Source of the DNA: a virus
Length of the DNA stretch: 32,482 nt
Strand: one strand, 5' to 3'
Virus record (IMG/VR): IMGVR_UViG_3300017989_000297
Coordinates: 1 to 32,482 of that record
Shown: positions 2,635 to 32,482 of the stretch, piece by piece
Position numbering within the stretch: the first letter of the stretch is position 1
Layout: every line of letters begins with the position of its first letter
The notes under the pieces: generated by a model
Database searches by the model: none
Told to the model about the DNA's origin: nothing
The model's input: the letters and a program-made list of their open reading frames with translations, nothing else
Program-made: the position numbers and the translations under genes

Positions 2635-3741
2635 TCAGACTCCGACGGTCGTTTCGAGCCACGCCTTCACGTCGGCGTGGAGCGCGGTACCGGTGAGCGC
2701 GGGCGTCGTCGGGTTGTCGGCGATGCTGCCCCACGTGACCTTCGACGTCGGCGCCATGTTCGCGGCGATCGCGATCTCCATCGCGTTCCCGACGAAGTCG
2801 TGCGCCGGGTCGCGGTACGCCTTGTTCCCCGCGGTGTCGTTCTTGAGCTCGCCGGGGACGAAGTCGCCGGGCGCGAGGCTCGTCCCGTCCGGGTCGCTCG
2901 AGCTCGGCCAGACCCCGTAGACGGGCATGGTCCGGTTCTGCGTGAACCCCTGGACGATCCAGAAGTACGGGCTCGCCGCGAGCTTGTAGCGCCGCTCGAG
3001 CGTGGACCACAGCCGGTTCGTCCTCGTGCGGAGGAAGTGCGGGTGGAGGTCGTTCGCGTAGACCCCCGAGCCGGCCGCGTTCACGTCGAACTGCGTCCAG
3101 TCGGCGGTCGCGCCGATCGCGACCACGGCCGCGGGGCGGTGCGAGAACCGCGCGACGTACGGGTCGATCGTCGGCGCGATGTTGCCCGGGAGCGCGGGGA
3201 ACATCGTTGACGGGAGCGCCGAGAGCCAGAGCGCGGTCGTCGCGCCCGAGCCGAACCCGAGCACCGCGATCCGGTTCCGCCCGATGCTGTTCCCCGAGCC
3301 CCACAGGTCCACGGCTCGAGCGCCGAGCGAGATATCGTCCACCGCCGAGGCGTGCGCCTTGAGGTACGCGACGGCGTGCCCGATCTGCTTCTCGTGCTCG
3401 GGGAAGTACGCGAACGGCGTGACCTCGTCGAGCACGTTGCCGGTGTTCGCGGACGGCGGAGCGTCCACGGAGACCACCGCCCACCCGGCGGCGTTCAAGT
3501 CCTCGGCGATCTGCGCGACGTCGGCGTCGATCGTCTCCGGGCTCGTCTCGTCGTCCCCGTAGGTGACGTAGTCCCCGCCCTTGAGGATGACGAGGCACGG
3601 CGCGTTCGTGAACGACGCCGACGGCCGCCAGACGAGGAGGCGGCAGAGTCCGGACGGGTGCGCGGCGTAGTAGTGCTCGCCGGCGGTCGCGCCCGGCTCG
3701 TCGGTGGTCGCGCGCGTGAAGGTGACGTACGGGCCGGGCAT
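2635..3741 (-). CDS. Alpha/beta-hydrolase-like protein with degenerate nucleophile elbow
   Basis: This 368-residue protein has the skeleton of an esterase-type alpha/beta hydrolase: a strand and oxyanion-like turn at 50-58 (LVILKGGDY, where active esterases have HGG), a strand at 87-94 (WAVVSVDA), a helix at 117-130, and a strand leading to a tight turn at 157-168 (RIAVLGFGSGA). In active relatives this turn is G-x-S-x-G; here the nucleophile position is Gly (G162-F163-G164-S165-G166) with Ser one place later. It could therefore be an inactive, ligand-binding fold, or use shifted chemistry. D311 and H314 (DPAHDF) are possible remnants of the acid/His pair. The start directly abuts the stop of the second tail fibre, suggesting a virion or fibre-associated role in glycan or ester recognition. 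No signal peptide is seen. Confidence 0.6.
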   Translation of the reverse strand: MPGPYVTFTRATTDEPGATAGEHYYAAHPSGLCRLLVWRPSASFTNAPCLVILKGGDYVTYGDDETSPETIDADVAQIAEDLNAAGWAVVSVDAPPSANTGNVLDEVTPFAYFPEHEKQIGHAVAYLKAHASAVDDISLGARAVDLWGSGNSIGRNRIAVLGFGSGATTALWLSALPSTMFPALPGNIAPTIDPYVARFSHRPAAVVAIGATADWTQFDVNAAGSGVYANDLHPHFLRTRTNRLWSTLERRYKLAASPYFWIVQGFTQNRTMPVYGVWPSSSDPDGTSLAPGDFVPGELKNDTAGNKAYRDPAHDFVGNAMEIAIAANMAPTSKVTWGSIADNPTTPALTGTALHADVKAWLETTVGV

Positions 3742-5127: not shown

Positions 5128-5460
5128 CTAGGGTTCCGGGTCGGGCTCGGGCGCGGGCTCCGCCGGCGGTAGCGGCTGGGGCTTCGGGAACTCGAGCGGC
5201 TCGGGCTTCACGAGCTCCTCGAGGATCCCGACGAGCTCCTCGCCCACCGCGATCCGGAGGTTCCAATCCTGGAGGAGCTCGAGGCGCGCGGAGACCTGCA
5301 CCGGCGACAGCCCCGGGTCGGCCTGGACGTAGGCGGCGTACTCGAACGCGACGGCGTCGAACGTCGCCCGGTCGGCCTCGATCCACTCGCGAGGGATCTG
5401 GGTCGCGTTGCACGAGCTCGCGAGCGCGAGCACGAGGACGGCGGAGAGAGCGCGGAGCAT
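5128..5460 (-). CDS. Small proline-rich lipoprotein (possible outer-membrane spanin-like protein)
   Basis: The 110-residue product has a type II signal sequence: MLR, a hydrophobic stretch and a lipobox L13-A14-S15-S16-C17, with Cys17 the predicted lipidated residue. The mature part is helical and acidic (about 20-85) and ends in a Pro/Glu-rich tail (about 86-110, EPLEFPKPQPLPPAEP). A strong binding site (AGGAGG) eight bases before the ATG at 5460 overlaps the stop of the preceding gene. Small Pro-rich lipoproteins are typical of outer-membrane spanins, but those usually pair with an overlapping inner-membrane spanin, which is not obvious here, so this role is inference. The lipobox -3 position is Ala, slightly off the commonest pattern. 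Confidence 0.65.
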   Translation of the reverse strand: MLRALSAVLVLALASSCNATQIPREWIEADRATFDAVAFEYAAYVQADPGLSPVQVSARLELLQDWNLRIAVGEELVGILEELVKPEPLEFPKPQPLPPAEPAPEPDPEP

Positions 5461-5472
5461 TCGGGGGTCCTC

Positions 5473-5871
5473 CTAGCTGGCGGCGACGATCGGCGCGGCC
5501 GCGGTGGCGGCGCCGGTCTCGGGGTCGAAGTAGTGGAGCGGCTCGATCGGGAGCTCGACCGGGAAGGTGGTCTCCTCGGTGCGCCAGACCCCCGACGGGA
5601 ACCCGACGCGGACCTGGAGCTTCCACGTCCCCGCCTCCGAGAGGTCCCCGGGCGCCGCGACGTAGCGGCATTTCCCGTCGGTCCCCGGCGGCGTGGACAC
5701 GGTCCCGGTGCGGCGCTTCACGCGGAGCGACGGGAGCACGAACACGAACTCGATGACGGTCGCCGTGGAGAGGTCCACCACCACGGCGTCCCCGTTCTCG
5801 TCGCAGTCGGTGATCGTGACCTCGAACACCGTGCCCTCGTCGGCGACGTGGATCGAATTCGTGCAGGTCAT
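5473..5871 (-). CDS. BppU-N-like/Ig-like baseplate or fibre accessory protein
   Basis: A 132-residue beta-rich protein that starts at ATG 5871, overlapping the spike stop as ATGA. Residues about 10-110 follow the layout of small phage proteins related to the N-terminal domain of the lactococcal phage upper baseplate protein BppU: a strand with a polar input (TVFEVTITDCDENGDAVVVDLS), a hydrophobic strand (VIEFVFVLPS), a Gly/Pro turn with a Lys/Tyr strand (GKCRYVAAPGDL), and a final strand pair (GTWKLQVRVGFPSGVWRTEE). These domains commonly act as adaptors between baseplate and receptor-binding proteins. Placement next to the spike gene fits. The assignment rests on pattern only. Confidence 0.55.
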   Translation of the reverse strand: MTCTNSIHVADEGTVFEVTITDCDENGDAVVVDLSTATVIEFVFVLPSLRVKRRTGTVSTPPGTDGKCRYVAAPGDLSEAGTWKLQVRVGFPSGVWRTEETTFPVELPIEPLHYFDPETGAATAAAPIVAAS

Positions 5872-7418
5872 CGTATGCGGGAGCTCGAGAGGGTCCGGCG
5901 GATTGCGGCGCTCGAGAGCCGGCTGCGGCCGACCCGGAGCGCCTGGTCGAGAACGCGCTCGACCCTACCGGAACGGCCGACCCGGCGCGAGATGAGGAGC
6001 TCGAGCGCCTCGGTCCGGTTGATCCCGAGCTCGAAACAGACCACCGGCAGCGCCGCCGCGACGAGGAGCTCGACGAGCGGCGCGATCGCCACCGCCTCGC
6101 CGGCGTTGGGGTTCAACGTGAGCCCGAGCGAGACCGCCGGACCTAGCGCGATGGCCCCGCCCGGCGCCGGGTTCACTCCGGTCTGGATCCCGACAATCGA
6201 ACCGACGGCGGTGGCCAGCGCGCTTTCGGGGTTCGTCGCGATCAGGAGCGCCACGAGCGGGGAGGTCGCGACGGCCGCCGACGCGTCGGGCACGAGAGTC
6301 CTCAGGAGCTCGAGCGCCGGGCCGGTGGCGATCGAGCCCGCTGGGTCTGGCGACACCGACGTGTCGAAGTTGAAAGCGCCGATCTCCCACCCGAACCCGT
6401 CGAGGTTGTGCTGCTCCCCGGCCGCGTCGAACTCGCCCCCGCTTCCGAGCGGGATGAACAGGTAGCCGGCGTCCGTGCCGGTGTTGATGAGCTTCGAGAG
6501 CCCGGCGCCGGACGGCTGGAAGGCGCCGACGGCCGGACGCTCCCATGTGTTCGCGGCGGTCTGGCCGGTGAAGCTGTTCGCACCGGTCGCGCTCGAGTCC
6601 CCGGACACGCAATGCCGGAACTCAGCGATCGCGCCGACGTTGAAGTCCTGATTGCCGGCGACCGCGTAGCCGTTCTCGATCGCGCTGCAATTGATTACGC
6701 GCGCGTTCGTGTTGCCCGTCGCCTCGAACCCGGTGCCGAACGAGCTGGTAGACGGGAACCCGATCAGTGCCTGCCGTATCTGGTAGGCGTTGCAATTGAC
6801 GAACCGGGCCTCTCCCGAGCCGAAGGTCGTAAGGTCGCGGAAGCCGTAGCGCGGACCCACCCGACCGGTGCTCGTCGTGTTGTTAGAACCGATCGCGGTG
6901 CAATTGGTGAACGTCGCCGCTCCAGTCACGCCGACCGAAGCCTGGAACACGTTGTTCGCGGCGTTGCTCCCCCCGTTGTGCTCGGCGTGGATCGAGTCCA
7001 CCCAGATTCCCCGGTCCACTCGCACACACCGGAGGATCGCGGTCGAGCTCGAGCTCGGCATCAGGACGCCGAGCAGCCCGCTCCCGTAGCCGCAATGTCC
7101 GAACCGGAGGTGGTCCTCCTGAATCCGAACTACGCTGTTCGTGCGCTGGAGAGCGGCTCCCGTTCCCGCGGAAGGGTTGTAGCCGTTGCCCATCGCGGGT
7201 CGGATCCACCGGAAGCGCGTCGCGTCCGACACTCCCCCGTAGAACGTGTTGCGCAGGAACAGGAGCGAGCCAAGGACCAGCGGCGTCGGCTGGATGATCT
7301 CGGCGATACGAACCTCGTCGAGCGCCGGGAGGTCGAGCGTCCTCGTCGCCGTATCCCAAGCGGCGAGGGTCGTGTAGGTCCCCCCGCTCCCGACAGTCTC
7401 GACGACCTCGGTGGGCAC
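5868..7418 (-). CDS. Beta-helix-like tail spike/surface protein with C-terminal 20-residue repeats
   Basis: A 516-residue protein from GTG 7418, three bases after the sulfatase stop position. Residues about 1-350 look like a right-handed parallel beta-helix: regularly spaced short strands with Asn/Cys rungs (NCTAIG at 172, NCNAYQI at 208, NCSAIENG at 243, RHCVSGDSS at 268) as in pectate-lyase-like and tail-spike proteins. No catalytic residues can be assigned. Residues 357-456 are five tandem repeats of exactly 20 residues, each beginning with Pro. The final 60 residues are helical and very Arg-rich (LISRRVGRSGRVERVLDQALR). The protein is probably a virion spike that binds or cleaves surface glycan; the repeats may form an extended stalk or trimer interface. 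The stop overlaps the BppU-like gene (ATGA). Confidence 0.6.
   Translation of the reverse strand: MPTEVVETVGSGGTYTTLAAWDTATRTLDLPALDEVRIAEIIQPTPLVLGSLLFLRNTFYGGVSDATRFRWIRPAMGNGYNPSAGTGAALQRTNSVVRIQEDHLRFGHCGYGSGLLGVLMPSSSSTAILRCVRVDRGIWVDSIHAEHNGGSNAANNVFQASVGVTGAATFTNCTAIGSNNTTSTGRVGPRYGFRDLTTFGSGEARFVNCNAYQIRQALIGFPSTSSFGTGFEATGNTNARVINCSAIENGYAVAGNQDFNVGAIAEFRHCVSGDSSATGANSFTGQTAANTWERPAVGAFQPSGAGLSKLINTGTDAGYLFIPLGSGGEFDAAGEQHNLDGFGWEIGAFNFDTSVSPDPAGSIATGPALELLRTLVPDASAAVATSPLVALLIATNPESALATAVGSIVGIQTGVNPAPGGAIALGPAVSLGLTLNPNAGEAVAIAPLVELLVAAALPVVCFELGINRTEALELLISRRVGRSGRVERVLDQALRVGRSRLSSAAIRRTLSSSRIR
6051..6350 (-). repeat. Five tandem 60-base units coding for 20-residue repeats
   Basis: Residues 357-456 of the spike divide into five 20-residue units with no gaps. 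They begin PDPAGSIATG, PDASAAVATS, PESALATAVG, PAPGGAIALG and PNAGEAVAIA. The shared pattern is Pro, a turn with Gly/Ala, a small-hydrophobic alternation, a second Pro or Ser at position 11, an aliphatic run and usually Asn or Val at position 20. DNA identity between units is low, so the repeat is conserved at protein level and is old or selected. Confidence 0.75.
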
Positions 7419-7421
7419 GGC

Positions 7422-8756
7422 CTACGGGAACAGGTCGAGGAGCGCCTGGAGCTCGAGCTCGAGCGCCGGGTCGTCCACGGGCGCGAGCTCGAGCGGGTCG
7501 CTCGGGAGGTGGAACAGCCCGCGGAACGCCTCGGCCCCGCCCGTCTCATCCACGCGGAGCTTCCACCCGTCGGCGCGGACGATCGCGCGCTCGCGCGCGT
7601 TGAACCCCGCCGGCCCGGGCTCGCCGAGCTCGGGCGCGTAGTTCGGGAAGAACCGCTCCGCAAACAGCCACTCCCGCGGCGGCGCCGAGCTCCACGGCAC
7701 GAGCGCGCCGGCGAACGAGACCCCGTCGGTCGGGGCCGGGATCGGGAGCCCGAGGAGCTCCTCGAGCGTCGCCCAAAGGTCGAGGACGGAGACGAGCTGG
7801 CGACGAGCTCCCGGACGGATGCCGGGGCCGCGGACGTAGAGCGGGGTCTCGATCGCGAGCTCGGTGACTCCCGGGGCGCCGGCCTTCGCGAACACGGGCA
7901 CCGGCGGCGGCGGCGGCATGGCCGAGCCGTTGTCGCACGAGACGACCACGAGCGTCGTGCACGGATCGAGAACCTCGAGCACGGTGCCGAGCCGGTCGTC
8001 GAGCGCCTCGATCATGCTCTCGAACTCGAGGCGCCCGTCCCCGGCCGTCGGCGGCCCGGTGTAGTACGGGGCCGGCGCCTCGTGGAACGGCGCGTGGGCG
8101 GCGGTGAACGAGAGCCACAGGAACCGCGGCTCGCCCTCGTGCTCGAGCCACCACTCCCGAGCCGCTCGAGCTTGGGCGGCGGTCGCGTACTCGGTCGTCA
8201 CGGTCTCGACCCCGTCGTCGATCCGGCCCCACGAGAAGTAGGTACCGGCGCCGGCGGTGGCCCCGAGGTTGTGCGACGCGACCGCGCGCGCGAACTCGAA
8301 CCCGAGGAGCTCGGGCGCGTCCTCGAGCGGGTACTCGACGCCGGCCGAGAGGTGCCATTTCCCGACCTTGCAGGTCCGGTAGCCGGCGCGCGTGAACGCG
8401 TCCGCGAGCGTCGGCGCGTCCTGCTCGACGTCGTTCGGGTCGCCCTTCTTGATGATCCTCCCGATCCCCTGGCGCCTCGAGTAGACCCCGAGGAGAGCCG
8501 AGACCCGAGACGCGCTGCAGACCGGTCCGGTCGTGTACGCGCGCGCGAACCGCGCCGAGCTCGCCCGGAATGCGTCGAGGTTCGGCGTCGCGACCGTCGG
8601 GTCGTCCTCGAGGTCGAACGTCCCGACGTCGTCGAGGTCCACCAGGACGACGTCGAGCGGGCGGAGCGGGAGCGCGGGGCCGGGCTCGAACTGGAACGCC
8701 TCGAGAGCCACGGCCCCGCACACCGACAGGAGGAGCGCGGGGACCGGGCTTCTCAT
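7422..8756 (-). CDS. Arylsulfatase family (S1-type) enzyme with signal peptide
   Basis: A 444-residue sulfatase predicted to hydrolyse sulfate esters. Residues 1-21 form an N-terminal hydrophobic signal-like segment. Recognisable family blocks, in order, are: metal-binding D42-D43 (VLVDLDDVG); TPNLDAF at 57; the formylglycine site C80-S-A-S-R84 followed by LLG; GKWHL with K133 and H135; H221 (FTAAHAPF); D275-N276 (SCDNGS); and K399 (DGWKL). The site has Ala where aerobic enzymes usually have Pro (C-x-A-x-R), a variant known to be accepted by maturases. Length is near the family's small end. Start ATG 8756 overlaps the preceding gene's stop (ATGA). No maturase gene is visible, so host maturation is inferred. 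It sits among fibre and spike genes, so a role in stripping host sulfated polysaccharide is likely, though substrate is unknown. Confidence 0.88.
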   Translation of the reverse strand: MRSPVPALLLSVCGAVALEAFQFEPGPALPLRPLDVVLVDLDDVGTFDLEDDPTVATPNLDAFRASSARFARAYTTGPVCSASRVSALLGVYSRRQGIGRIIKKGDPNDVEQDAPTLADAFTRAGYRTCKVGKWHLSAGVEYPLEDAPELLGFEFARAVASHNLGATAGAGTYFSWGRIDDGVETVTTEYATAAQARAAREWWLEHEGEPRFLWLSFTAAHAPFHEAPAPYYTGPPTAGDGRLEFESMIEALDDRLGTVLEVLDPCTTLVVVSCDNGSAMPPPPPVPVFAKAGAPGVTELAIETPLYVRGPGIRPGARRQLVSVLDLWATLEELLGLPIPAPTDGVSFAGALVPWSSAPPREWLFAERFFPNYAPELGEPGPAGFNARERAIVRADGWKLRVDETGGAEAFRGLFHLPSDPLELAPVDDPALELELQALLDLFP

Positions 8757-9202
8757 CAGGTGCCGCTCCGGATCTGGACGGCGCCCTCGGCGTTCCAGTT
8801 GATCGTCAGGTCGGCGCCGCTCGGCGAGAACGGGAACCCGCCCGAATCGAAGTAGACGAGGAGCGGGCTGTCCCCGTCCACGGTCACGAACTTGTAGAGG
8901 AGCGCGGCCTGCACGTCGCGCGTCCCGACGCCGAGGCTCGAGAACACGGTCGCGGCGGCCGGGAGCTCGACGCGGCTGTTCGGGGCGTCGATCGCGGGCG
9001 GCGACTGCACGAGGGTCTGGCGCGCGTACGGCGTGCCGTCGTGCTCGTCGAGCGTGCCGACGTCGCCGACGAACTTGGCCGTCGTGTCGGTGTCGGCCGT
9101 CGTGTTCGTCATCACGAGGAGCACGCGGAGGGTGTCGTTCTCCAGGTCGATCTCGCCCTTGAACAGCGCGAGGAGCCCCTCGAGGTACCAGAAGTTAGCC
9201 AT
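8756..9202 (-). CDS. Small virion-structural-type protein
   Basis: A 148-residue, beta-rich acidic protein beginning MANFWYLEGLLALFKGEID, then LENDTLRVLLVMTNTTADTDT. This opening (a short helix, then a statement of a few strands with an aliphatic RVLLV core) is common in small phage proteins annotated as structural and placed next to tail fibre genes. The C-terminal half (SRVELPAAATVFSSLGVGTRDVQAALLYKFV and LLVYFDSGGFPFSPSG) is also typical. It probably decorates the tail or fibre, but the exact role is not known. Its stop overlaps the sulfatase start, so the two are co-translated. Upstream is a 112-base gap with no clear gene. Confidence 0.6.
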   Translation of the reverse strand: MANFWYLEGLLALFKGEIDLENDTLRVLLVMTNTTADTDTTAKFVGDVGTLDEHDGTPYARQTLVQSPPAIDAPNSRVELPAAATVFSSLGVGTRDVQAALLYKFVTVDGDSPLLVYFDSGGFPFSPSGADLTINWNAEGAVQIRSGT

Positions 9203-11240: not shown

Positions 11241-13718
11241 CTATAGCGGGGTGGCGAGAACGGACGGCGCGACCGCGACGGCGCCGGCGGCGGCCGGGCC
11301 GGTCGAGCTCCACGGAGCGTGCCCGGTGTAGTCGAGGTCGAAACGGAAGAACACGAGAGTGTGGGCGGGCTTGTGCTCCTCGAGCCCGCAAACGAGCGGC
11401 GTCGCGTCGTCGGCGACGAGCGGCTCGCCGGCGCCCGACTCGCCAGCGGAGAAGAAGACCGGGTTTATCTCGGGCGCGTGGACCTCCCAGACGAAGACCC
11501 ACAGCCCTTGGGTGATCGAGTCGCCGGCGACGCTTCCCGGCGTGAACGGTTCGTTCCCGTCCACCGTGACGGAGAACCCGAGCGACGCGGCGAGCTCGAC
11601 GAAGAACGCCTCCGATTGGCCGGCGCCGGACCCCTGGAACGAGAGCTTCGCGGCCGCCTCGAACCGGCGGAGGATCTCGGTCGCCGCGAGCGCGCTCGGG
11701 CACACGAGGTCGGGCAGGACCGGCCCGTAGTCGGGCTTGGTCGAGATCGCGGCCTCGGCGCCGAGCGTGAGGTCCCCGCCGGTGTAGGCGCCGACCGCGT
11801 CGGGTGTGACGCCGCCCTGCTCGAGGTCGAACTCCCACCCGTAGACGATCGCGTCCTCGTTCCCGTGGATCTCACGACCGGCCCCGTCGTTGTAGAGCAC
11901 CGCGAGCTCGTCGGGCGGGAGGACGCGCGCGTAGGCGCGGACCTGGTCCACGTCGCCGAGCCACGGGTCGAACGAGCCGTCCTGCGCGACCGTGATCCCC
12001 TCGTCGGCGTCGGGCTCGAGCATCCGGTCGCCCGGGGGGACCTCGAGGTCCGGCCCGATCTGCTGGCCGTTGACGAAGAACTGGAGCGCGCCGCTCGAGG
12101 CGCCGGCCGGGCCGTCCTTGCCGCGGTAGGTAACGGACACCATCGCCCACTCGCGCGCGATCGAGACGCCGTCCTCGTCGGTGGAGCCGAGCGCCTCGAC
12201 GATCGGGAAGGTCCCCGCCAGCGCGCCGACATCGTCGGCCGCGATCTGGAACGGGAGGAACCCGGTCGAGTCGCCGAGCTCGACGGTCACGGAGAGCGCC
12301 GGCGCCACGGCGCCGCCGGTCAGCGTGGTCGTGTTCCCGTGGTCGGCTTGGAACAGGATCCGGAGCCCCCGGTTCGTGCCCGAGGAGAAGCGCCGGAACA
12401 GGTGGTGCTGCGCGCTCGAGAACGCGCCGACCGCGTCGAGCCACCCGTTCGCCCCACCGGTCCGGCCCCATTTCACGCGGACCCACGCGGTCAGAGTGAA
12501 CTCGATCTCGGGGAAGTCCGACGCGTTCGGCCAGTCCGGCGAGCCCGCGAACGCGCGGACGTCGCCGCCCTCGTCGGTCGCGTCGAGGTAGAACCCGGGG
12601 AGCGGGTCGGGTCCGCCGGGGATCCCGAGCACGCGCTCCCAATCGGCGAGGAGCTCGACGGCCGAGCTCGGGAGCGACTCGCGCGCCAGGTCGCGGCCGC
12701 GGCAGTCCACGCGCGCGAACTCACGGACGAACGCCTCCATCACGGCGCGCAGGTTCGTGTCGCGGCGCTTGTTCCACAGGAGCCCTTGGGGGAGGAGGTC
12801 GAGCGCCTGGCCCCCGTAGCGGTCGGTCTTGCCGTCGAGGTCGGGCGCGCTGCTCTCAAGCTCGAGGAACGTCGGCACCGGCGCGAAGAACGGGAGCGGC
12901 GCCAGGTACTCGCCGAGGAGCTCGGCCGCGCGGTCCCCGAGCTCGAGCGGCGCGACGCCGATGTAGTCGGACGTGTTCTGGACACTCAGCCCGACCTCGA
13001 GCCCGTCGCCATCGACCGTGTGGACGTGCGGGTCGTTGGCGGCGATCTCGAGGAGCGCCTCGCGGACGACGTCCACGTTCGGCGCGGTCGTGTCGATATG
13101 GTCGCGCGGCGGGAGGATGAGAACCCACGGCACGGGAACCCACGCGGGCAGCCGACTCAGCCCGTTCGCGGCCGCCTGCTCGCGAACGTAGGCGATGTAC
13201 GCCTCGGTCTGCGCGCGCATCGTCGCGACTGTCACCGACCCGTCGGCGTTCTGAGACTCGAGTGCCCCGATCGAGAAGACCACGCCGCGCAGGTCGGTCG
13301 TCTCCCCGCGCGACTGGAGCGTGTCGAAGAACCCGCCCGACTCGACGAGCCCCGCCTTCACGTCCACAGCTTCGCGCAGGTCGTTCGTGTAGTTCTGAAT
13401 CGCCCAATCGTTGAACATCCCCGACAACGGGAACACCGACGATTGCTCGACCGCGGTCTTCTGCACCGTGACTGGCCGGCCGCCGTTCAAGTTGCGGATG
13501 GCGGTCCCGAACGAGAGCTCCGGGCCGAACCCGAAGAACCCGCTGGTGCTCTTGTTGTTCGCGAGGTAGGCGAGCTCGGCGTCGAGGTTCGACGTAATCA
13601 CGTTCCACGACCGGACGTTCGGGTGCGGCCCGACGTAGTCGGCGGGGAGACCGGCGCCCGGCGCGCGGCCTTCCATGTTGCGGTCCCCGAGCAGCAGGTA
13701 GTTGGGCGTCGGTTCCAT
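11241..13718 (-). CDS. Baseplate gp48-type protein fused to an inactive SASA-like esterase fold and carrying a nested LamG-like domain
   Basis: An 825-residue composite. (1) Residues 1-275 resemble SGNH/SASA-type acetylesterases: the first block reads NYLLLGDRNMEGR where active enzymes have GQSN, with RAPGAGLPADYVGPHPNV after it. The Ser is replaced by Arg13, the QGE block is IGALES (150-155), and the final D-x-x-H block reads SDYIG (250-254), so the catalytic residues are missing. (2) Residues about 299-372 are the first half of the Mu gp48/YmfQ (DUF2313) family (ALDLLPQGLLW, VELLADWERVLGIPG). (3) Residues about 375-655 form a LamG/concanavalin-like beta sandwich (FTLTAWVRV, GALQFFVNGQQIG, WLGDVDQVRAYARVL). 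(4) Residues about 665-790 resume gp48 (SEAFFVELAASLGFSVTV, VFVWEVHAPEINPVFF, EHKPAHTLVFFRFD). The end is Ala-rich. gp48 attaches fibres to the baseplate, so the extra modules are likely surface exposed. Confidence 0.8.
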   Translation of the reverse strand: MEPTPNYLLLGDRNMEGRAPGAGLPADYVGPHPNVRSWNVITSNLDAELAYLANNKSTSGFFGFGPELSFGTAIRNLNGGRPVTVQKTAVEQSSVFPLSGMFNDWAIQNYTNDLREAVDVKAGLVESGGFFDTLQSRGETTDLRGVVFSIGALESQNADGSVTVATMRAQTEAYIAYVREQAAANGLSRLPAWVPVPWVLILPPRDHIDTTAPNVDVVREALLEIAANDPHVHTVDGDGLEVGLSVQNTSDYIGVAPLELGDRAAELLGEYLAPLPFFAPVPTFLELESSAPDLDGKTDRYGGQALDLLPQGLLWNKRRDTNLRAVMEAFVREFARVDCRGRDLARESLPSSAVELLADWERVLGIPGGPDPLPGFYLDATDEGGDVRAFAGSPDWPNASDFPEIEFTLTAWVRVKWGRTGGANGWLDAVGAFSSAQHHLFRRFSSGTNRGLRILFQADHGNTTTLTGGAVAPALSVTVELGDSTGFLPFQIAADDVGALAGTFPIVEALGSTDEDGVSIAREWAMVSVTYRGKDGPAGASSGALQFFVNGQQIGPDLEVPPGDRMLEPDADEGITVAQDGSFDPWLGDVDQVRAYARVLPPDELAVLYNDGAGREIHGNEDAIVYGWEFDLEQGGVTPDAVGAYTGGDLTLGAEAAISTKPDYGPVLPDLVCPSALAATEILRRFEAAAKLSFQGSGAGQSEAFFVELAASLGFSVTVDGNEPFTPGSVAGDSITQGLWVFVWEVHAPEINPVFFSAGESGAGEPLVADDATPLVCGLEEHKPAHTLVFFRFDLDYTGHAPWSSTGPAAAGAVAVAPSVLATPL

Positions 13719-13725
13719 CGTGGAG

Positions 13726-14778
13726 CTAGACGAACGTGACGGTGCCGACCTGGTGGATCTGCGTCGCGGTGGTCGTGACGTCCGCGACCGGCGCGGTCAG
13801 GACGTGGTCCTCTTCCCCGGGCGCGTTGGAGATAGCTTCGCGGATCTTGGGGAGCGGCAGCGTCGTCTCGGGCGCCCCGAGCTCGAGCACGAGGTCGGCG
13901 AGCGCCTCCTCGATCGCGGCCCGGATGTCGGCGGTATCGGCGCCGACGAGCTGGATCGTCGGGGAGAGGTTCACCGCGGTCGGCGCGAACACCGTGACCG
14001 ACGCGGTCACGGGCTTCTCGAGGTCGATCGCGGCCTGGACCTCCGCGACCTTACCCGCCCCGGGGATCGGGCCGCCGGTAGCGTTGTCGGTCATGATTGC
14101 GACGCCGACCGTGCCGAGCCCGAACTGCGCGCCCTTCACGAAGACGCGCGTGACCTCCGCGACCTCGCGCGCCCAGATGACGTAGTCGGCCTCGCTCCCG
14201 CCCATCGGCGGTGTCTGGAGAACTTCGACGAGCCGCGAGAGGAGCGACGCGTCGCTCTCGGTCTCGACGCCGCCGGTCAGCCCCGTGTCCACGGTCGCGG
14301 TCGCGTTCGCGCCGGCGATCGGCGAGACGAGCGTGAGGCTCGTCGCCGCGGGCGCGTTGCCGGCGGTGCCGGCGAGCTCGGCCTGCACGTTGACGACCGC
14401 GGAGCCCCCGGAGATCGTCGCGTCGGCGGTGGTCGCGTAGTCGGCTCCATCCGACCGGCGGATGACCGTGCCCGTCGGGATCGCGGTCCCGTCGGTGCCC
14501 GTGAACGTGACGTCCCCGCTCGCCGGCGTCGCGTCGATCCGGATGACGCCGAACAGGTTGGCCCACCGGACGAGGAAGTCGCTGTCCGCGGTGTCGGGGA
14601 TGACCTGGCGCGCGAGGTACTCGAGGTGCCCGTGGAGCAGGTGGGTCTGGCCGGCGACGACCTCCGCGAACACGGCCAGGACGGAGTCGTCGAGGAGCGG
14701 CCCGACGCCGAGGCGGTTCTCGATGTCGGCACGAACACGGGCGCGGAGCTGCGCGAGGGTGGGAACAACGAACGGCAT
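13726..14778 (-). CDS. Baseplate wedge protein J/Mu gp47 family
   Basis: A 350-residue baseplate J-type protein. It starts MPFVVPTLAQLRARVRADIE and has the early family block with the LFGV segment (WANLFGVIRIDATPASG), then the beta domain with TDGTAIPTGTVIRRSDG, the SLLSRLVEVLQTPPMGGSEADY segment and the WAREVAEVTRVFV block, followed by a C-terminal domain (VTASVTVFAPTAVNLSPTIQ). The protein joins the hub to the tail fibres in the wedge and takes part in triggering contraction. It lies between gp46-like and gp48-like genes in exact Mu order. Length is in the usual range. The ATG at 14778 follows the gp46-like stop after ten bases. Confidence 0.93.
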   Translation of the reverse strand: MPFVVPTLAQLRARVRADIENRLGVGPLLDDSVLAVFAEVVAGQTHLLHGHLEYLARQVIPDTADSDFLVRWANLFGVIRIDATPASGDVTFTGTDGTAIPTGTVIRRSDGADYATTADATISGGSAVVNVQAELAGTAGNAPAATSLTLVSPIAGANATATVDTGLTGGVETESDASLLSRLVEVLQTPPMGGSEADYVIWAREVAEVTRVFVKGAQFGLGTVGVAIMTDNATGGPIPGAGKVAEVQAAIDLEKPVTASVTVFAPTAVNLSPTIQLVGADTADIRAAIEEALADLVLELGAPETTLPLPKIREAISNAPGEEDHVLTAPVADVTTTATQIHQVGTVTFV

Positions 14779-30846: not shown

Positions 30847-31037
30847 CACGCCTCCTCCGCGCGTTCGACGCGCTCGAGCGCGGAGTCGATCCGCTCGGCG
30901 ACGATCCCGGCCGCGTCCTCGGAGACCTCGCCGTTCAGGTACGCCTGGACGTGGACGAGGACGGCGTGGCAGTTGCGGTAGGCGGCGGCGAGCTCGGCGA
31001 GCTCGGTGGTCGTCTCGGCCTGTTCGTGGACGGTCAC
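30846..31037 (-). CDS. Small helical acidic protein, unknown
   Basis: A 63-residue frame from GTG 31037, which overlaps the methyltransferase stop as GTGA. It reads as an all-helical acidic product: ETTTELAELAAAYRNCHAVL, VQAYLNGEVSEDAAGIVAER, IDSALERVERAEEA. Compactness and coupled overlaps on both sides support it. No family is recognised. Confidence 0.6.
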   Translation of the reverse strand: MTVHEQAETTTELAELAAAYRNCHAVLVHVQAYLNGEVSEDAAGIVAERIDSALERVERAEEA

Positions 31038-32398
31038 TCCGCGTCCTCCTCGGCGTCGCTCTCCTCGAGCTCGGCGACGAGCTCGGCCTTCCGACCGGTG
31101 AGCCGCTCCCACCGCGCGATCGAGACGTCCACGCGGCGCGGCTCGATCTCGATCCCGACGCACCGGCGCTCCTCGAGCTCGGCGGCGATCAGCGTCGAGC
31201 CGCTCCCGAGGAACGGGTCGAACACGCGCTGGCCGTGGTCGCTCGAATTCCGGAGGAGCTCGCGGAGGAGGTCCACCGGTTTCTGCGCGTTGTGGAACCG
31301 CTCGCGGTCCTCGTGGTCCGCCTCGAACCCGGCGCCCTGTCCGGTGCGCCCGAACCGCAGCACGTTTGACGCGTGGACGGAGCGGATCCCCGTCGCGGTC
31401 TTCTTGAAGACGTGCTCCTTCGGCGGGATCCGGTGGAGGAACCCGGCGAGCTCGTACCCGTTCGCGTAGTTCGACCCGAGCCCGCTGTTCTTCTTGTCCC
31501 ACACCAGGACGTTCTTGACCTCGAGGGTCGCGACCGACCGGGAGCACTCGTGCCACGCCGGCCACGAGCGCCAATCGCAGAACACGTACGCGTGCCCGAA
31601 CCACTCGAGGACGCGGTCGGCGAGCTTGAGCACCTTCTTGAAGAACGGCCGCACCATCCGATCGTCGGCGACGTCGGCGCCCACTCCGGTCGAGCTCCCG
31701 TAGATCGCGTACGGCGGATCGGTCACAACGAGCGCGAGCCGCTTCCCGTCGATCGCTCCGCGGATCGTCGCGTCGTCGAGCGAGTCGCCGCACACCACGA
31801 CGTGGTCGCCGCACCGCCAAACGTCGCCGAGCTTCGCGGTCGCCTCGTCCGGTTCCTCGAGCGCGTCGAGGTCGTCGAGCCCACCGGCGCCACCGCCCCC
31901 ACCGCCTTCCTGTCCCGGAATGTCTACCGACAGGATCCGCTCGAGCTCGCCCTCGGAGAACCCGAGCCCCTCGAGCGCGTCGCCGCTCTCGGACCCGATC
32001 GCCTCGAGCTCGCGGAGCTCGGTCTCGAGCGCCTCCTCGTCCCACCCCGAGAGCTCGGCCAGCCGGTTGTCGGCGACGAGGTACGCGCGCGCCTCGGTCT
32101 CCGACAGGTGGTCGAGCTCGACGACCGGGAGCCCGTCGGGGAACGTCCCCGGGTTGTCGTCCTCGATCATGCGCGCGGCGGCGAGACGGCCGTGGCCGGC
32201 GCGGATCTTGCCGCCCGAGACGAGGATCGGGTTCACGAATCCGAACCGGAGGATGCTCGCGGCGAGCTGCTCGAGCTGGCGCTTCGGGTGCGTCCGCGGG
32301 TTGTTGTCGTACGGGACGAGCTCGTCGAGGGTCCGGAACTCGATGCGCTTCGCGAGCTTGACGGAGACGTCGGCCGCGGTGGTGTCGGGATCGCTCAT
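31034..32398 (-). CDS. ParB-like nuclease domain fused to a beta-class DNA methyltransferase
   Basis: 454 residues from ATG 32398; a GTG at 32455 would add 19 residues and is equally adjacent to an upstream TAG, so the start is uncertain. Residues about 19-120 form a ParB/Sulfiredoxin-like domain (LDELVPYDNNPRTHPKRQ, GHGRLAAARMIED, VADNRLAELSGWDEEAL). A Gly-rich linker (164-173) leads to a methyltransferase with DPPY at 227-230 and FDPFLGSGST at 393-402, the order of beta-class N4-cytosine/N6-adenine enzymes, plus the HNAQKPVDLL block. Such phage fusions modify DNA and may protect it from host restriction. The recognition site is unknown. Confidence 0.92.
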   Translation of the reverse strand: MSDPDTTAADVSVKLAKRIEFRTLDELVPYDNNPRTHPKRQLEQLAASILRFGFVNPILVSGGKIRAGHGRLAAARMIEDDNPGTFPDGLPVVELDHLSETEARAYLVADNRLAELSGWDEEALETELRELEAIGSESGDALEGLGFSEGELERILSVDIPGQEGGGGGGAGGLDDLDALEEPDEATAKLGDVWRCGDHVVVCGDSLDDATIRGAIDGKRLALVVTDPPYAIYGSSTGVGADVADDRMVRPFFKKVLKLADRVLEWFGHAYVFCDWRSWPAWHECSRSVATLEVKNVLVWDKKNSGLGSNYANGYELAGFLHRIPPKEHVFKKTATGIRSVHASNVLRFGRTGQGAGFEADHEDRERFHNAQKPVDLLRELLRNSSDHGQRVFDPFLGSGSTLIAAELEERRCVGIEIEPRRVDVSIARWERLTGRKAELVAELEESDAEEDAE

Positions 32399-32482
32399 GC
32401 CCTCGAGCGTGCCGCCGGCGGTCGGCCGTGTAAACCCAACGCACGGCCCTGGCACTAGCGAAACGCCGATCCTCGCGGCACC

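Follow-up and report, generated by a model that had tools for sequence, protein, structure and literature searches.

Why does a tailed phage carry a gene for an S1-type sulfatase among its tail genes, and would the encoded enzyme still work? The question is raised by an IMG/VR virus record of 32,482 bases with a GC content of about 71%, analysed here over its whole length and referred to as the window, in which a first-pass annotation, made from the letters alone, had described a complete and apparently active sulfatase inside a phage fibre region. The features that bear on the question are listed in Table 1.

Table 1. Position of the sulfatase gene, its active-site elements and the neighbouring tail genes in the window.
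Feature	Position	Strand	Basis
S1-type sulfatase gene	7422..8756	(-)	444 aa; PF00884, fold and ORF
Leader-like N-terminus, residues 1-30	8667..8756	(-)	Hydrophobic at about 6-19, judged by eye
Metal-binding D42-D43	8628..8633	(-)	Alignment; D43 column is D in 64/65, Cys in L131
Formylglycine motif C80-S-A-S-R84	8505..8519	(-)	C80 and R84 in 65/65
K133-W-H135	8352..8360	(-)	K and H in 65/65
H221	8094..8096	(-)	65/65
Metal-binding D275-N276	7929..7934	(-)	D in 65/65, N in 63/65
Eroded catalytic-lysine loop, residues 284-301	7854..7907	(-)	Alignment, model pLDDT
phrog_644-family upstream gene, function unknown	8756..9202	(-)	PHROGs, 2.9e-16; 82% identical in L131
Fibre-like 516-aa downstream protein	5868..7418	(-)	Place, and homologues in L131 and L148
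Baseplate protein: Mu Gp48-like region, LamG-like insertion, weak SASA-like N-terminus	11241..13718	(-)	Pfam; 51% identical in L131
Baseplate J protein	13726..14778	(-)	PF04865, 9.7e-67; used in the host-phylum search

The gene consists of one intact open reading frame, and its GC content at the three codon positions (0.73/0.52/0.95) fits, as expected, a coding gene at the GC of the window. The product matches PF00884 over residues 36-336 with an E-value of 1e-25, scoring 91.1 bits against a curated cut-off of 25; at E<=0.01 this is its sole Pfam match and phrog_19870 its sole PHROG (1.6e-23). The window contains the signature G-Y-x-T-x3-G-K-W-H a single time, and none of 100 shuffles contains it. 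The AlphaFold model reaches a mean pLDDT of 89.4, Foldseek matched it to the PDB entry 6prm at an E-value of 1.6e-26, and VIA comparison with 7stv gave a Z of 42.9 and an rmsd of 2.7 over 382 residues (model range 32-444). By sequence, the best solved relatives include PsS1_19B (6prm, 1.4e-21) and an S1_16 enzyme (9fo1, 7.6e-19), both carrageenan sulfatases, so that members of S1_19 and S1_16 are among the nearest solved structures, at low identity. The HMM search and the structure comparison had both been proposed with the first-pass annotation, and together with the full-length frame they uphold its claim of a complete sulfatase, the family match lying well above the curated cut-off and the S1 fold extending across nearly the whole chain. 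The signal-like N-terminus that it had pointed out was also found again, as a stretch that looks leader-like by eye and as a modelled helix at residues 8-20 with low pLDDT; from these we infer a signal peptide, with export itself a prediction that would follow from it.

Catalytic columns were read from an alignment of 65 sulfatases, namely the window protein and 64 others. The window protein carries a formylglycine-type nucleophile of the form [CS]-x-[PA]-x-R as C80-S-A-S-R84, a metal site complete in its D, D, D and N (D42, D43, D275 and N276), and the K and H of GKWH together with the distal H (K133, H135 and H221). D42, C80, R84, K133, H135, H221 and D275 are invariant in all 65 sequences, whereas the N276 column has two deviants, both cellular rows, and position 82 is Ala in 4 of the 65, which makes the window motif a CxAxR variant. 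The nine positions that had been assigned to the catalytic block within these motifs (D42, D43, C80, R84, K133, H135, H221, D275 and N276) thus all sit in catalytic columns, and C80, whose placement the first-pass annotation had singled out for checking, aligns with the formylglycine column, which is Cys throughout (65/65).

The same does not hold for K399, which had also been listed as catalytic: it is conserved (K in 60 of 65), yet it lies in the C-terminal part, off the catalytic-lysine column, and the alignment rules it out in that role. The true column, which precedes an E-G-G motif and which we take to correspond to K302 of human arylsulfatase A, is Lys in every one of the 64 homologues; the window has A294 there. 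The two glycines that follow the lysine (G in 58 and 64 of the 65 sequences) read L300-A301 in the window protein. K291 stands three residues from A294 in a poorly modelled loop, and a profile built from six phage relatives alone brings K291 onto the lysine column by way of a three-residue insertion, so that loss and displacement are both possible; as judged from the aligned sequences, the catalytic lysine of the window enzyme is lost or displaced. Residues 288-293 of the model have a pLDDT below 50 and the two blocks across 281-300 score 66 and 74, against 94 and 96 for the two blocks of the same loop in the model of a phage relative (L131), built from nearly the same 65 sequences. A frameshift within the loop was considered and rejected, since the other two reading frames give no better match.

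This relative, L131 (IMGVR_UViG_3300032212_000123), is a separate record with 62% GC and the nearest among the virus contigs retrieved with the signature pattern, its sulfatase (11365-12690) being 51% identical to that of the window over 413 residues. It keeps the catalytic lysine and has Cys in the D43 column, that of the second metal-binding Asp. The lysine and D43 columns deviate in only two of the 65 sequences, in the window (A294) and in L131 (Cys); both proteins retain the remaining catalytic residues and a full-length frame. The third member of the clade, L148, is 34.5% identical to the window protein, also has the motif C-S-A-S-R and shows no change at any of the ten catalytic positions. 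That each of two syntenic phages has one altered catalytic residue suggests a relaxed constraint on catalysis, or a changed role, in the lineage of the window and L131, and the pair of changes implies that catalysis in this lineage is probably reduced. With the lysine missing or displaced in one enzyme and the metal-binding Asp replaced in the other, the description "apparently active" is doubtful for both.

The identified phage genes of the window are all on the same strand and comprise, by Pfam, baseplate J, Gp46, Gp48-like, GpP-like, tail tube, sheath, portal and terminase genes. The sulfatase ATG overlaps the stop codon of the phrog_644-family gene (TGATG), and the gene for the fibre-like protein begins 3 bases past the sulfatase stop; the shared strand, the overlapping start and the short gap within a tail operon speak against a transcription unit of its own. 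The sulfatase is nonetheless a separate open reading frame, its single Pfam domain being fused to no structural or adaptor domain. The downstream 516-residue protein gave no match in Pfam, PHROGs or NCBIfam (E up to 0.01 in each) and is a putative structural protein on account of its position and of its homologues in L131 and L148. The earlier statement that the gene is coupled to structural genes on both sides is therefore upheld as regards the tail cassette, the overlap and the 3-base gap, and less so as regards the downstream neighbour, which is without a family match.

L131 has the same gene order, with the phrog_644 gene followed by the sulfatase and then by a fibre-like homologue (36% identical over its first 75 residues, at the contig end). 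Identities to the window along its cassette are 39% for the tape measure, 60% for circ, 50% for gpP, 65% for the spike, 60% for gp46, 66% for J, 51% for gp48, 82% for the phrog_644 gene and 51% for the sulfatase. In L148 the sulfatase directly precedes a fibre-like homologue (34% over 369 residues), in a region that includes a major head protein.

Several other genes of the cassette were also characterised. Genes resembling that at 8756-9202 recur in phage contigs (20 loci, including the near-copy of the window and L131), and the gene that follows them varies, being a sulfatase in some. The SASA-like part of the 11241-13718 protein reads GDRN, as it does in L131, at the position of the usual GQSN motif; by its sequence this N-terminus is perhaps a dead esterase used for binding. 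The 368-residue protein encoded after the tail-fibre gene (2635-3741) has the look of an alpha/beta-hydrolase by eye, a guess that was dropped for want of a match in Pfam, PHROGs, NCBIfam or the PDB (E<=1). A small protein at 5128-5460, with a lipobox-like start and a weak homologue in the related contig L300, is possibly a spanin, and a DNA methylase domain (PF01555) with an N-terminal part that is ParB-like by eye is encoded at 31034-32482, near the terminase genes.

In the IMG/VR collection (2.9 million contigs), the DNA pattern for G-Y-x-T-x3-G-K-W-H was found in 47 stretches, an undercount given that the same pattern is present in 5 of 20 planctomycete sulfatase loci. PF00884 was detected in 46 of the 47 records and exceeded its cut-off in 45. 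Against 50,697 phage records, the window protein had one match, in a 289,658-base Salmonella record annotated as arylsulfatase, and the sulfatase of another pattern contig, L139, had 29, of which 19 are named only "Bacteriophage"; among the L139 matches listed, 13 of 15 are without annotation. The terminase, used as a control, matched 800 records, and these figures agree with the earlier remark that sulfatases are uncommon in phage genomes. A structure search of predicted viral proteins (E<=0.001) returned six matches, none named as phage (Satyrvirus, Yasminevirus, Tetraselmis virus 1, Terrestrivirus, Hyperionvirus and a mimivirus). The passages on "sulfatase" in four articles (PMC10232697, PMC12724379, PMC13288928, PMC10132071), drawn from a search that left subscription journals and preprints largely outside, hold no description of a tail sulfatase. 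In one or other of these four, such passages mention the FGE maturase of Pseudoalteromonas phages, FGE-like domains in a tail-fibre target of retroelements and in a gliding protein of a host, and, in a phage T4 comparison, a gene named "iduronate sulfatase".

Five of nine virus genes of the window's kind lie beside structural genes or in the same stretch by homology or HMM (the window, L131, L148, L130 and L153), and for three of the nine no placement beside structural genes was found by these means. In L130 the sulfatase is flanked by a phrog_644 gene on one side and a minor tail protein on the other, and L153 has relatives of the window's TerS (37%), phrog_644 gene (43%) and 563-1645 gene (57%), together with a similar fibre N-terminus (45%). 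The L140 gene may adjoin structural genes, its neighbours giving weak matches or none. The sulfatase adjoins a terminase in L145, and an exonuclease and a DNA polymerase in L152, so that its linkage to fibres is not general; in L289 (34% identical, from a later scan) it lies upstream of genes read by eye as terminase and portal. Hydrophobic starts are seen by eye in seven of the nine proteins (the window, L131, L148, L140, L145, L152 and L289), are not seen in L130 and are unclear in L153.

Terminases related to that of the window were collected at 62 loci, one being the near-copy of the window, and PF00884 was found in none of the 50 records searched among the other 61, many of them short fragments, so that the sulfatase is not a common gene of the terminase group. 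L300, whose J and phrog_644 gene are 51% and 55% identical to those of the window, has a 644-residue open reading frame after the phrog_644 gene and gave no sulfatase match in the 20.4 kb examined, and the planctomycete prophage stretches examined held no sulfatase either. These three negative results count against the reading favoured below, and they mark the sulfatase as an accessory of the cassette.

A 94-row tree, built by a quick maximum-likelihood method, with SH-aLRT values rather than bootstraps and with several long-branched phage rows, grouped the window with L131 at 98 and both with L148 at 99 (both values starred), with end branches of 0.72 for the window and 0.43 for L131. The clade falls within a starred set of 33 rows, made up of 20 planctomycete, nine phage and three other cellular rows and the window; the closest cellular rows are about 35% identical to the window protein. 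Because the planctomycete rows were picked by similarity to that protein, the tree shows kinship and not the direction of transfer. From the 47 pattern contigs, 40 were used (G061, G078, G079, G082, G089, G090 and G096 were left out), and 12 of these were dropped from the tree, being incomplete (L137, L146, L154), fused (L136, L143, L150) or near-copies by length and motif (L138, L149, L158, L162, L165, L166). The tree also took the first 40 of at least 80 genome loci, 20 planctomycete loci (at most four candidates scored per genome) and five of six plasmid loci, and does not contain L289, which was found later.

Planctomycetes are known for their many sulfatases, and their phages have been little studied. 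Numerous sulfatase candidates were present in many of the planctomycete genomes, and the surroundings of related sulfatases, examined in seven planctomycete stretches, look chromosomal by eye. The best relative of the J protein (53%) is encoded in the planctomycete genome G310, beside a terminase (51%), portal (41%), sheath (48%) and tube (60%) related to those of the window. Relatives of J were found in 5 of 392 planctomycete genomes (best 53%). Three control phyla, each named here by a member genus, gave 18 of 398 genomes for Glaciecola (Pseudomonadota; best 45-46%), 1 of 337 for Pelagicoccus and 0 of 296 for Microbacterium; the Pseudomonadota count weakens J relatives as proof of the host and weighs against the favoured reading. 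No match was obtained for the terminase in five genomes holding related sulfatases, nor for J in three further genomes. Our best guess is a high-GC planctomycete host, because of the J relative at 53% identity, the kinship of the sulfatases and the GC content of about 71%. PF03781, the FGE-sulfatase family, which is wider than the maturases, was found in all five planctomycete genomes carrying a related baseplate gene and in none of five phage records examined, two of which are near-copies; this agrees with the first-pass expectation that the maturase would have to be supplied by the host.

In three further virus contigs, the sulfatase domain forms part of a large protein: L136 (11551-16827, 1759 aa), L143 (370-5415, 1682 aa) and L150 (7866-11930, 1355 aa). 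These fused domains carry the DD, C-x-P-x-R and GKWH motifs. Baseplate wedge families (gp25-like; phrog_219) were recognised among the neighbours of the L136 protein, along with a weak match to a hub family, and the protein itself resembles Gp10_D3 over a short stretch. The L150 protein and its neighbour both give a weak phrog_5417 match. The L136 and L150 proteins had no match among the 50,697 phage records. The three fused proteins are possibly sulfatases built into the virion.

We tentatively favour, with less than even confidence, the reading that this phage-borne S1-type enzyme is an accessory of the late tail and fibre cassette in a group of contractile-tailed phages, that it would be exported to act on sulfated glycans of a planctomycete host, and that its catalysis has been weakened or lost in the lineage of the window. 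The protein would be made late, alongside the tail proteins, matured by the formylglycine-generating enzyme of the host and exported by means of its leader, and would then act on sulfate esters of envelope or exopolymer glycans of the host; as a result, progeny might leave the debris, unproductive re-adsorption might be avoided, or the surface might be prepared for the fibres encoded by the adjacent gene. A decayed or repurposed enzyme, with catalysis lost and the protein retained to bind sulfated glycans or persisting as a fading remnant, is a rather doubtful but serious contender, as the lysine column reads Ala in the window against Lys everywhere else, D43 is replaced in L131, the two deviants are the syntenic relatives, the lysine loop is modelled with very low confidence and the end branch of the window is longer than that of L131. 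Decay sits less well with the retention, in both phages, of a full-length frame and of the remaining catalytic residues, with K291, which may stand in for the lysine, and with the intact third member of the clade, L148.

Packaging of the sulfatase on the tail, where it would desulfate the capsule at adsorption in the manner of a depolymerase or deacetylase tailspike, is unlikely for the window protein, which is a separate open reading frame with a leader-like start, shared by most relatives of its kind, and with no other Pfam domain; what speaks for it is the location of the gene within the tail cassettes of both the window and L131, and the sulfatase domains within the three large proteins, the first of them with wedge and hub neighbours. 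A role in lysogenic conversion or as an auxiliary metabolic gene, scavenging algal polysaccharides on the host's behalf for their sulfate or carbon, would suit the wealth of sulfatase candidates in planctomycete genomes, the seven chromosomal-looking stretches and the phage copies that lie outside the tail region, yet the window gene is embedded by its overlap in a tail operon and keeps this place in L131, and we regard such a role as decidedly improbable. One unusual gene within an environmental contig could also be host DNA joined to a phage by misassembly or contamination. This is very unlikely, close to negligible, since a second record, G001 (41,051 bases), covers 32,474 bases of the window with eight mismatches, none within the sulfatase gene, and is identical across the gene and both flanks, and since the divergent phage L131 has the same gene order.

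Beyond the favoured reading of the window gene, and put forward with some reserve as a possible generalisation, phages may have taken up S1 sulfatases for work at the host surface more than once: in an exported form encoded among tail genes in planctomycete phages (the window, L131, L148 and L153), one lineage of which perhaps acts as a binder of sulfated glycans, and in a virion-built form, fused into baseplate- or fibre-like proteins, in other tailed phages (L136, L143 and L150). If this were true, phage adsorption or release would draw not only on depolymerisation and deacetylation but also on desulfation, or on a sulfatase fold that recognises sulfated glycans, and this would add to the chemistry known from phage proteins acting on bacterial surfaces. 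That a sulfatase is kept among the tail genes of phages points to sulfated glycans of the host as an infection barrier or a receptor, and sulfated bacterial envelopes could then be sought from phage genomes alone.

The window protein can be set against several known systems. The family phrog_19870, which it shares with the fused proteins of L136 and L150, has no annotated function. The planctomycete sulfatases (e.g., L248, L250 and L256) belong to the same starred set of 33 rows and are about 35% identical to it, but they are encoded in stretches that look chromosomal by eye, whereas the window protein is encoded in a phage cassette. The solved S1 sulfatases, namely the exo-4S-kappa-carrageenan sulfatase PsS1_19B (6prm), the S1_16 kappa-carrageenan sulfatase (9fo1) and a Pedobacter sulfatase (7stv), have the fold and most of the catalytic residues in common with the window protein, which differs from them in an identity of about 20-28%, in A294 at the catalytic-lysine column and in being encoded within a phage tail cassette. 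The tail-associated carbohydrate enzymes of phages, such as depolymerases and deacetylases, are similar in that a carbohydrate-active protein is encoded among the tail genes, as in the window; unlike these, the window protein has a sulfatase fold and is a separate, exported-looking open reading frame rather than a domain of a spike.
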